Shown in pieces: positions 7,506 through 9,286 of a stretch of DNA of 13,020 nucleotides. The notes beneath the pieces are model-generated. The model saw only the letters and a program-made list of their open reading frames with translations, was not told the origin of the DNA and searched no databases. The first letter of the stretch is position 1; each line of letters opens with the position of its first letter. Source of the stretch: Undibacterium sp. (GTDB lineage Bacteria; Pseudomonadota; Gammaproteobacteria; Burkholderiales; Burkholderiaceae_D); contig JAIELM010000538.1 in the NCBI GenBank assembly GCA_019752975.1, positions 1-13,020 on the forward strand, in the 5' to 3' direction. The position numbers were made by a program, and so were the translations under genes.

Positions 7506-8705
7506 TCAACTCAAAAATGACTCTGCTAAATTGACCCAGTAACTCGCCCCAAGCGGTAACAGTGCGTCGTTGAAATCGTAACTAGGATTATGTAAGTTGC
7601 ATGGTCCTAGTCCATGTCCTAGACTACGATGGTCACCATCGCCATTCCCAATAAAGACATAGCAACCGGGCTTAGCCTGTAGCATGAAGGCAAAGTCCTC
7701 TGCTCCCATGGAGGCTTCCACCTTAGTATTGACCTGCGCCTCACCCACCATCTTTTGTAATACCTCAGTAGCTAACTGGGTTTCTTTTTCGTGATTGATG
7801 AGGGCGGGATAGTTACGTGTGAACCTAAAATCGACGCTAGCACCGTAAGCCTCGGCAGTATGGCGAGCCATACTTTGCATGCGTTTTTCAATTTCATCTA
7901 AAACCGCACCATCAAAAGTGCGTACCGTACCCACCATGATCGCTTCATCGGCAATCACATTGGTTGCGCTACCAGCATGAATTTGCGTGATCGACAAAAC
8001 TGCCGAAGCAAGAGGATTAATTTGACGACTAACGATGGTCTGCCATGCTTGCGCTATATGTACCGCCACCATAATTGGATCTATCCCCATTTGTGGCTGC
8101 GCCGCATGCGCTCCCTTGCCGCTAATTTTAAGCGCAAATTCATTGGCAGAGGCCATCATTGCACCACTTTTTAGGGCGAAGTGACCTACAGGAATACCCG
8201 GCCAATTGTGCATACCAAACACCGCATCCACGGGACATTTCTCAAACAGGCCCTGCGATATCATCACTTCGGCGCCACCACCACCCTCTTCGGCTGGTTG
8301 AAAAATAAGATACACCGTACCATCGAAATGACCAAATTTTTGCAAATAATGAGCCGCGCTCAATAACATGGCGGTATGCCCGTCATGACCGCAGCTATGC
8401 ATCTTTCCTGGATGCTGTGAAGTATGTGCAAATTCATTGACCTCTTGCATTGGTAAGGCGTCCATGTCAGCACGCAAACCAATTGCCCGGTGACTTTGAC
8501 CACGTCGGATCACACCAACGACTCCTGTTCCTGCTAGGCCTTGGAGTATAGTGATACCCCATTCTTGCAATTTTTCCGCGACCAAGGCCGAAGTACGAAA
8601 CTCCTCGAAACTTAATTCGGGATGAGCATGAATGTCCCGCCGAATAACCTGCATTTCAGCTTGGGATTCTTCTATTGAAGTGTGAATGATAGGGGCGGGG
8701 TTCAC
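7506..8705 (-). CDS. M20-family amidohydrolase (hippurate / IAA-amino acid hydrolase type)
   Basis: 399 residues, the usual length. Metal-ligand and catalytic motifs of the peptidase M20D subgroup are present: IRRDIHAHPELSFEE (21-35), GLRADMDALPM (76-86), HSCGHDGH with Cys105, His107 and His110, QPAEEGGGGA with Glu139 and Glu140, MGAEDFAF, and a late LHNPSYDFND that supplies the last histidine. Such enzymes split N-acyl amino acids (hippurate, IAA conjugates, N-acetyl amino acids), releasing the amino acid; the exact substrate cannot be read from sequence. No signal peptide is seen, so it is cytosolic. The start is GTG at 8705 with AGGA about six bases upstream; this places 20 residues before IRRD, close to related proteins. 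An out-of-frame ATGTGA overlaps the start. It converges with the chemoreceptor gene, with 18 bp between stops. Confidence 0.93.
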   Translation of the reverse strand: MNPAPIIHTSIEESQAEMQVIRRDIHAHPELSFEEFRTSALVAEKLQEWGITILQGLAGTGVVGVIRRGQSHRAIGLRADMDALPMQEVNEFAHTSQHPGKMHSCGHDGHTAMLLSAAHYLQKFGHFDGTVYLIFQPAEEGGGGAEVMISQGLFEKCPVDAVFGMHNWPGIPVGHFALKSGAMMASANEFALKISGKGAHAAQPQMGIDPIMVAVHIAQAWQTIVSRQINPLASAVLSITQIHAGSATNVIADEAIMVGTVRTFDGAVLDEIEKRMQSMARHTAEAYGASVDFRFTRNYPALINHEKETQLATEVLQKMVGEAQVNTKVEASMGAEDFAFMLQAKPGCYVFIGNGDGDHRSLGHGLGPCNLHNPSYDFNDALLPLGASYWVNLAESFLS

Positions 8706-8771
8706 ATGGTTCCTAAATAAAATAAGTACCCCATTTTACCTGTAGGAATCGCCATAAGAAATCAAATTTAA

Positions 8772-8796
8772 AGAATGAATTCACCTATTTCATTCT
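8772..8796. promoter_or_regulatory. 25-bp palindrome, candidate operator
   Basis: AGAATGAA (8772-8779) and TTCATTCT (8789-8796) are perfect 8-bp inverted copies with a 9-bp spacer. It lies about 65 bp upstream of the amidohydrolase start on one side and about 75 bp upstream of the small-RNA promoter on the other. Size and symmetry suit a dimeric repressor or activator. No T run follows on either strand, so a terminator is less likely. Confidence 0.45.
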
Positions 8797-8802
8797 GCAG
8801 TA

Positions 8803-8835
8803 TTTTTGAGGTGTTTTTGAGGCGTTTTTGAGGTA
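8803..8835. repeat. three 11-bp tandem repeats (TTTTTGAGGYR)
   Basis: Units at 8803-8813 (TTTTTGAGGTG), 8814-8824 (TTTTTGAGGCG) and 8825-8835 (TTTTTGAGGTA) are head-to-tail copies differing only in the last two bases. The 11-bp period is close to one DNA turn, so the boxes line up on one face. They end about 37 bp before the -35 element of the small RNA. Confidence 0.8.
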
Positions 8836-8860
8836 TACGCATTTGATATATCTGGTATAC
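8832..8860. repeat. GGTATAC boxes 22 bp apart
   Basis: GGTATAC occurs at 8832-8838 and again at 8854-8860; the GTATAC core is itself a palindrome. The spacing of 22 bp is about two DNA turns. The second copy ends 11 bp before the -35 element of the small-RNA promoter. Together with the tandem repeats just upstream this looks like a regulator-binding region. Confidence 0.5.
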
Positions 8861-8871
8861 AAAAATGTGGC

Positions 8872-8900
8872 AAGACAAATTTTCTTCGTTGCGATAAAGT
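8872..8900 (+). promoter_or_regulatory. sigma-70 promoter of the small RNA
   Basis: -35 AAGACA (8872-8877, four of six consensus bases) and -10 TAAAGT (8895-8900, four of six) are separated by 17 bp. Transcription would start near 8907. The promoter has no coding gene ahead of it, only the small RNA ending at the terminator at 8971. Confidence 0.6.
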
Positions 8901-8906
8901 AGCACC

Positions 8907-8971
8907 TGTCTCCTCCAACACCTCCTAAGGTTTGGACTTAACCCGCAGCCAAAAGCTTGCGGGTTTTTTTT
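8907..8971 (+). ncRNA. small RNA with anti-Shine-Dalgarno cores (Betaproteobacteria toxic small RNA type)
   Basis: About 65 nt, between a sigma-70-like promoter and an intrinsic terminator, with no open frame of note. It contains two C/U-rich cores: UCUCCUCC (8909-8916) in the 5' part and CACCUCCU (8919-8926). The second equals the last bases of 16S rRNA around the anti-Shine-Dalgarno site. A stem forms from CCAA (8915-8918) plus ACCU (8920-8923) with AGGU (8928-8931) plus UUGG (8932-8935), with one bulged C and the loop CCUA, so part of the core is displayed. UUUGGACUUAACCCGC then leads into the terminator stem. From memory this fits the RNA family named 'Betaproteobacteria toxic small RNA', found through DNA that could not be cloned in E. 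coli. It could pair with ribosome-binding sites; that role is inferred. Confidence 0.75.
8940..8971 (+). terminator. strong intrinsic terminator of the small RNA
   Basis: AACCCGC (8940-8946) pairs with GCGGGTT (8959-8965). AGC (8947-8949) can also pair with GCT (8955-8957) around a short A-rich loop. Eight T residues (8964-8971) follow. The T run is on the plus strand only, which shows that transcription arrives from the left and not from the minus-strand DUF3567 gene. Confidence 0.92.
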
Positions 8972-9028
8972 GCTCTACGCAAAGTTCTTCGCTAGAATTT
9001 GAGATGGCGAACATGGAGTGCTTTAGGA

Positions 9029-9286
9029 TCAATGTAAAGAGACCGACTGTCCCATAAAGGTATCGAATTTCCCTAAAAAATCATCGATTTCTTCTATGCT
9101 GGGTTCCTGTGCAATTAGTTCTTGAACATCTTGCCGAAAACTCTCGGCTGAAATTCCTCCGATAAAGCACTCACGACACACTGCCTTATCGGTAATTTCG
9201 TAAGCGCCAAAACGTAAATGTTCATTGTTTAATTCCACACCGTACTCGACCACACTATATTGATCACTATTATAGATAATGTTCAT
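9029..9286 (-). CDS. DUF3567-family protein
   Basis: 85 residues from the ATG at 9286. The frame extends to an ATG at 9340, but only the 9286 start has a strong ribosome site (GAGGAG, five or six bases upstream), and MNIIYNSDQYSVVEY is where relatives begin. The sequence matches the DUF3567 family of Burkholderiales: GAYEITDK, then ECFIGGISAESFRQDVQELIAQEPSIEEIDDFLGKFDTFM and a closing VSLH. It is a small acidic soluble protein with no signal peptide. Two cysteines at residues 37 and 40 (CREC) lie where I expect relatives to have other residues, so they are probably not a conserved metal site. Function is unknown. The small RNA lies just downstream but on the opposite strand. Confidence 0.88.
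   Translation of the reverse strand: MNIIYNSDQYSVVEYGVELNNEHLRFGAYEITDKAVCRECFIGGISAESFRQDVQELIAQEPSIEEIDDFLGKFDTFMGQSVSLH

Follow-up and report, generated by a model that had tools for sequence, protein, structure and literature searches.

The RNA family RF02278 (Betaproteobacteria toxic sRNA) takes its name from growth inhibition and toxicity on over-expression in Escherichia coli, and its members have previously been studied in Burkholderia, Bordetella and Herbaspirillum. Four double-hairpin RNAs of Burkholderia cenocepacia belong to the family; over-expression of ncS27 slowed growth of this bacterium and ncS27 antisense had the opposite effect, ncS03, ncS05 and ncS27 rose 8.0-, 6.9- and 4.3-fold in glucose medium, and the regulator of the accumulation of these sRNAs is stated as unknown in that paper (PMC5688073). 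According to a review, ncS27 balances metabolic shutdown upon nutrient deprivation (PMC10987360), and four such RNAs were reported from Herbaspirillum (PMC7011215). In Bordetella pertussis, the absence of the sRNA S17 raises the expression of 92 genes, of which 70 carry, in or close to the ribosome-binding site (RBS), sequences complementary to unpaired regions of S17; direct repression of BP2158 was seen with a lacZ fusion, and exponentially growing E. coli was not impaired by S17 (PMC11722255). The initial annotation of the DNA studied here called the role of the family unsettled, a view that is outdated, as the role is partly settled in print (PMC5688073, PMC11722255, PMC10987360).

The stretch analysed here (the window) has 13,020 nucleotides and is contig C24 of an Undibacterium MAG of 3.25 Mb in 575 contigs, 73% complete. 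In the gap 8706-9028, with the M20 and DUF3567 genes on either side, the plus strand carries AAGACA, 17 bp, TAAAGT, then UGUCUCCUCCAACACCUCCUAAGGUUUGGACUUAACCCGC... and a terminator ending in eight T's (8964-8971); the coordinates given for promoter and terminator in the initial annotation check out, and so do those of its two cores, the octamer CACCTCCT and the core TCTCCTCC (8909-8916), the former in its RNA form being identical to what we take to be eight bases at the 3' end of 16S rRNA (Table 1). The gene is 66 nt long with promoter-like sequence immediately 5' of it, and the sRNA is probably the primary transcript of this promoter. A simple terminator scan returned 8940-8965 plus the T tract. 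The sRNA promoter was not listed by a simple promoter scan of the window, yet a -10 element stands at the same place in ten other loci described below; inspection of the gap sequence by eye gave no sigma-54 promoter at the right spacing. Three imperfect TTTTTGAGG repeats at 8805-8840, directly 5' of the upstream element, occur in the window copy only within the ten-locus alignment.

Table 1. Positions of the sRNA gene, its parts and its neighbours in the window
Feature	Position	Strand	Basis
sRNA of the RF02278 family	8907..8972	+	whole model matched, 49.2 bits, E 1.5e-7
-35-like hexamer AAGACA	8872..8877	+	sequence; AGAC common at the same place in genus copies
-10 hexamer TAAAGT	8895..8900	+	T-A-W-A-G/T-T there in 90 aligned genus promoters (alignment anchored on -10)
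Upstream element AGGTATAC...CTGGTATACAAAAAT, conserved, probable regulator site	8831..8866	+	matrix score 31.2; alignment
Place of PhaR-like core	8885..8893	+	window copy: mismatch to YGCRNYGCR
5' pairing region UGUCUCCUCC (site 1)	8907..8916	+	first seven bases unpaired in predicted fold
First hairpin	8914..8936	+	predicted fold, alignment, covariation
16S-like octamer CACCUCCU	8919..8926	+	mostly paired in predicted fold
Intrinsic terminator with eight T's	8940..8971	+	sequence, terminator scan, fold
M20 amidohydrolase gene, divergent neighbour	7506..8705	-	PF01546
DUF3567 gene, convergent neighbour; locus marker in relatives	9029..9283	-	PF12091

Family membership and conserved core

A cmscan search of the window against Rfam with E up to 1 gave two matches. 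RF02278 matched positions 8907-8972, 0.8 bit below its gathering score of 50; the other match, NmsRb (RF02877), was rejected at 28.2 bits and E 0.51, far below the gathering score of 52. At the DUF3567 locus, the orthologue in genome G169 reached 55.7 bits, above the RF02278 gathering score, and the others scored 42.3-49.3. The features of the family are present, namely a single-stranded 5' anti-Shine-Dalgarno (anti-SD) sequence of the UCUCCUCC type in the predicted fold, two hairpins of which the second is the terminator, and a second C/U-rich core in the first loop, where UCCU is kept but the core is reduced and partly paired. At E 1e-4 and 1e-3 none of 14 control genomes matched the model, and at the loose threshold E 1 matches appeared in 11 of them, none above the cut-off. 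Judged by these comparisons the window RNA is a member of a known family, as the initial annotation had believed, and adds one genus and one locus to RF02278. It was the only RF02278 match in its own MAG (73% complete).

By their DUF3567 protein, the nearest named loci are those of Undibacterium species. Of the 28 loci returned, ten (L061-L070; seven named Undibacterium, among them the U. seohonense locus L061, and three MAGs named Oxalobacteraceae) contain the same RNA core at a distance of 93-169 nt from the DUF3567 stop, and a motif scan of 700 nt in the other 18 gave nothing except one CTCCTCC at 575 nt in L081. When these ten loci and the window were aligned, UCUCCUCC was present in 11 of 11 and the DNA drifted on either side, and CACCUCCU was present in 9 of 11; the expectation of two kept cores between drifting flanks held for the flanks and the first core, and in part for the octamer. 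Across the genus, RF02278 matches (E <= 0.001) were obtained in all 39 genomes searched and exceeded the gathering score in 29. Among 138 fetched matches, the window's own being left out, TCTCCTCC lay within the first 14 nt in 114 and CACCTCCT occurred in 64. In the 93 promoter-bearing copies, defined by a -10-like element directly upstream and a score above 42 bits, UCUCCUCC stood at nt 3-10 in 91 and CACCUCCU in 61. These alignments indicate that the conserved core is UCUCCUCC and not the 16S-like octamer CACCUCCU.

The predicted fold of the RNA has two hairpins at -22.8 kcal/mol (z -3.76; none of 200 shuffles as good), with an unpaired C/U stretch at 8907-8913. The first hairpin, which the initial annotation had placed at 8915-8935 and taken to display part of the octamer, is present in the prediction; its extent there is 8914-8936, and most of the octamer is predicted to lie within it, with a bulged C, a paired ACCU and CCU in the loop. 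Because the octamer varies and is mostly paired, while UCUCCUCC is kept, a copy of the 16S tail, the headline of that annotation, is not the most apt description of this RNA. The octamer alone is also weak evidence, with one CACCTCCT in the window against 0.20 expected and at least one in 35 of 200 shuffles. The feature as a whole is not a product of chance, because of the E value of the RF02278 match, the z score of the fold and the covariation. In an alignment of 26 chosen copies from Undibacterium and other genera, 96.1% of the cells in the two hairpins were paired versus 83.4% in shuffles, and the covariation score was 0.359 versus 0.129 shuffled, a level that none of 500 shuffles reached; sliding gave at most 0.082. 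In the same alignment, the six base pairs with a double change and the 14 further pair types were not above shuffles (225 and 490 of 500 as high, respectively).

Tandem arrangement is frequent among the genus copies and often adjoins the M20 gene. In the tandem copies at G149:C1:1205906-1206527, G151:C3:30340-30867 and G161:C163:11472-12125, site 1 is kept and the first loop differs (CACCTCCT, CACCGTCA, CACCGTAA and others), as if the first loop had been diversified after duplication.

The promoter module and its PhaR-like box

When 90 distinct promoters of the genus, the window's left out, were aligned on the -10 element, two conserved blocks emerged, an upstream element and a TGC-rich box. 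The upstream element, AGATAT...ATGnCTGATATnCGAAAAAT, occupies the stretch between 64 and 29 bases upstream of the -10 element. A matrix of this element gave the window 31.2, against a median of 32.7 for the 90 training promoters; the second-best position in the window had 5.4. Scores of 32.3-37.3 were obtained at nine of the ten other loci, and in L066 the element is shifted by one base. In other genera, the short copies are preceded by a related upstream element. A 25-base pattern of the element with one mismatch allowed had 34 matches in 18 genomes versus 1 in the control, and no match in the own genome. Six of the 30 matches with loci precede RF02278-like RNAs, the others stand before short frames (G026, G129) or elsewhere, and no regulator of the element could be named from the pattern matches.

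Inspection by eye of G129:C1:5614915, 5615752 and 3859299 and of G026:C1:5472230, 5473084 and 3696702 (L277, L278, L288, L289) showed the element, a TGC box (ACTGCAATGCAAC, ATTGCAATGCAAC or ACTGCGACGCAAC) and short frames, with no sRNA; in G129 and G026 this promoter module apparently serves protein genes as well. At G030:C1:405156 (L281), also by eye, the element precedes an apparent two-hairpin RNA and a terminator without CCUCC cores, perhaps a sibling with other targets.

The TGC-rich box lies between -35 and -10, and its columns in the 90 genus promoters read pyrimidine-G-C-purine-any-pyrimidine-G-C-purine. These preferences equal the core of the palindrome WNWD2NYGCRNYGCRNH2WNW published for PhaR of Sinorhizobium meliloti (PMC12542648). 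Of 92 genus promoters, 78 have YGCRNYGCR within the last 60 nt ahead of the RNA, every time at -22 or -21. The adjoining 60 nt further upstream contain it in 4 of the 92, shuffles would give 0.28 of 92, and the background is 234 of 6,873 60-nt tiles of loci L061-L088; 14 of the 92 promoters are without the exact core. All ten other DUF3567 loci have it, and the window copy has no YGCRNYGCR in the 60 nt before the RNA, its score with the phasin-box matrix described below being 1.2. For other genera, the 30 best copies with their 120 nt upstream were split by regular expression into a leader class, where 11 of 14 copies had the core, and a short class, where 1 of 16 had it; this split puts three short-type copies (L012, L025, L029) into the leader class.

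Phasin genes are classical PhaR targets (PMC3570403). In the 39 genus genomes searched, TTGCRNYGCACNA was present in the 350 nt before the domain at 27 of 30 phasin loci, retrieved from a larger number of listed matches. A matrix built on the phasin boxes of these 27 alone recognised 70 of 92 sRNA promoters at scores of 9 or more (upstream control 1 of 92; shuffles 0.3 of 92), and a matrix of the sRNA boxes recognised 25 of these 30 phasin upstream regions versus 73 of 1,170 control tiles. The extended box TTNTTGCRNYGCACMA occurred 22 times in six genomes versus 2 for its reversed control. By coordinates, 9 of the 22 lie before phasin matches; another, in the own genome, precedes an inorganic pyrophosphatase gene, and two precede PEP-synthase-like genes, one of which was checked against Pfam, as was the adjacent kinase/pyrophosphorylase gene; the remaining occurrences have mixed or no clear neighbours. 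Of five occurrences of a looser box in the own genome (0 for the reversed control), one lies before a PHB depolymerase gene, one before the pyrophosphatase gene just named, and three fall within reading frames. In S. meliloti, PhaR binds the phaZ and ppdK promoters and ppa has a PhaR motif (PMC12542648).

In the own MAG (73% complete), a phaR model found nothing, and for phasin only a 22.6-bit match below the cut-off was found, in an 858-aa frame, which carries no information at this completeness. Loss of phaR was considered as the reason for the unmatched box of the window and rejected: the phaC contig C378 breaks off about 270 nt short of where a relative has phaR, so that the missing match marks a contig end and does not demonstrate a loss. 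Across 145 genomes of the window's taxonomic family, RF02278 matches were found in 133 (E <= 1e-4), under strict filters that lose some weak matches; phaR was scored at E <= 1e-5. Both sRNA and phaR were detected in 128 genomes, the sRNA alone in 5, phaR alone in 0 and neither in 12 (Fisher 5e-14), so that all 12 genomes without a detected sRNA were also without a detected phaR. For the 16 genomes not larger than 2.6 Mb, these numbers were 4, 1, 0 and 11 (p 0.003). Both p-values overstate independence, because 7 of the 12 'neither' genomes are of one genus and three of another. Of the 5 genomes with the sRNA alone, 4 have a completeness of 87% or lower. Co-absence of sRNA and phaR reads equally well as loss of PHB storage as a whole.

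Probable mode of action, alternatives and possible control

We consider it very probable that the window encodes a trans-acting RF02278 sRNA whose 5' end pairs with the Shine-Dalgarno regions of selected mRNAs, blocks ribosomes and turns down transport and catabolic genes. The nearly invariant 5' end UGUCUCC(UCC), predicted to be unpaired, is the likely pairing region; together with the C/U-rich first hairpin it would pair with Shine-Dalgarno regions and block ribosome binding, Hfq would probably sit on the U-rich tail, and transport and catabolic genes would be turned down when growth slows or carbon is in excess. The conserved upstream element is probably bound by a regulator of the sRNA promoter. 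Family match, predicted structure with its covariation, conservation and promoter anatomy come from the present analysis, and from the studied relatives we infer transcription, Hfq, RBS blocking and the kind of targets. Apart from the sRNA gene itself, the own genome contains one exact complement of nt 1-10, 2 nt before an ATG of a GH18/CBM5_12 gene, at its RBS (G000:C42, L329:1501-1510, minus strand); the reversed control pattern also occurs once and GGAGG itself is common at RBSs, and this chitinase-like gene is a candidate target, no more.

Binding of ribosome-binding sites, which the initial annotation had proposed, is the likely mode after the relatives S17 and ncS27. Another of its proposals, a broad slowing of translation, has found partial support in published work, and in its strongest form, a decoy in which CACCUCCU and 16S rRNA compete for Shine-Dalgarno sites so that most mRNAs are translated more slowly, it is unlikely. 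The presence of the octamer, the family name given for toxicity in E. coli and the attenuated growth under ncS27 over-expression (PMC5688073) would fit such a decoy; however, 32 of the 93 promoter-bearing copies in the genus and 2 of the 11 at the locus no longer have the octamer, although site 1 is retained, the octamer is mostly paired in the predicted fold, and S17 represses a gene set and left exponential E. coli unimpaired (PMC11722255). That the window holds instead a decaying copy, weakly or not transcribed, with its function carried by other genome copies, could be suspected from the score just below gathering and from the PhaR-like core that the ten other loci have and the window has not. 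It is highly improbable, since site 1, hairpins, terminator, -10 and upstream element are all intact and no second RF02278 copy was found in the own MAG (73% complete). It is scarcely credible that the sequence is the 3' end of a longer RNA or of a small-protein gene: S17 and ncS27 are processed from longer RNAs according to the published accounts and other genera have leader copies, but here a conserved -10 lies six bases before the family 5' end, and between element and RNA there is no conserved sequence suggesting a longer transcript.

The promoter comparison suggests that many RF02278 relatives of the window RNA may be under the storage-polymer sensor PhaR. On balance we lean towards the reading that the RF02278 sRNAs of Undibacterium and the leader-bearing copies of other Burkholderiaceae are direct members of the PhaR regulon, a betaproteobacterial counterpart of MmgR, with the window copy having escaped this control. 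PhaR would sit between -35 and -10 and silence the sRNAs; as PHB granules form they would draw PhaR away and release the sRNAs, which would then shut down uptake and catabolic mRNAs, and the window copy, without an intact core, would have escaped. Against PhaR control stand the coreless window copy, the 14 of 92 genus promoters without exact core and nearly all short copies of other genera, and a promoter duplicated with its RNA would share bases without function; despite this objection, what is conserved follows the motif's degenerate pattern. PhaR control is supported by sequence at the family level and not for the window copy. No link between PhaR and RF02278 RNAs was found among the open-licence papers listed by the searches, which is no claim of absence from print; PhaR control would be new for the family. 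PhaR is a concrete candidate for the control of RF02278 sRNA accumulation, and the upstream element is a second putative control site. If PhaR control is true, a widespread family gains a metabolic input signal, and betaproteobacteria, like rhizobia, would couple carbon storage to translational shut-off; this family-level promoter result matters more than the new RNA itself.

Comparison with described systems

Like the window RNA, ncS03, ncS05, ncS27 and ncS62 of B. cenocepacia have two hairpins, a C/U-rich 5' end complementary to RBSs and a 3' terminator; these RNAs come in several copies per genome (PMC5688073), whereas one was found in the incomplete own MAG. The first loop of the window RNA is of the ACC-UCCUAA type, as against CUCCUC in the RF02278 consensus, and its score is 49.2 against the gathering 50. 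S17 of B. pertussis has the same type of 5' pairing region. It was shown to repress RBS-complementary genes in an Hfq-dependent way, and it differs in being an RNase E product of a Bvg-driven 190-nt RNA (PMC11722255), the window RNA having a promoter directly upstream. NmsRa/NmsRb of Neisseria (RcoF, NgncR_162/163) share CU-rich unpaired stretches and are sibling metabolic sRNAs (PMC5688073; see also PMC5362039), but RF02877 scored on the window as given above. MmgR of S. meliloti (alpha-r8 family), alphaproteobacterial and likened here by features without a claim of sequence homology, is short, Hfq-dependent and carries an anti-SD motif; AniA (PhaR) binds its promoter and represses it (PMC8401924, PMC7143759, PMC12542648), and while the window copy is without the PhaR core, the same kind of site precedes many relatives of the window RNA.
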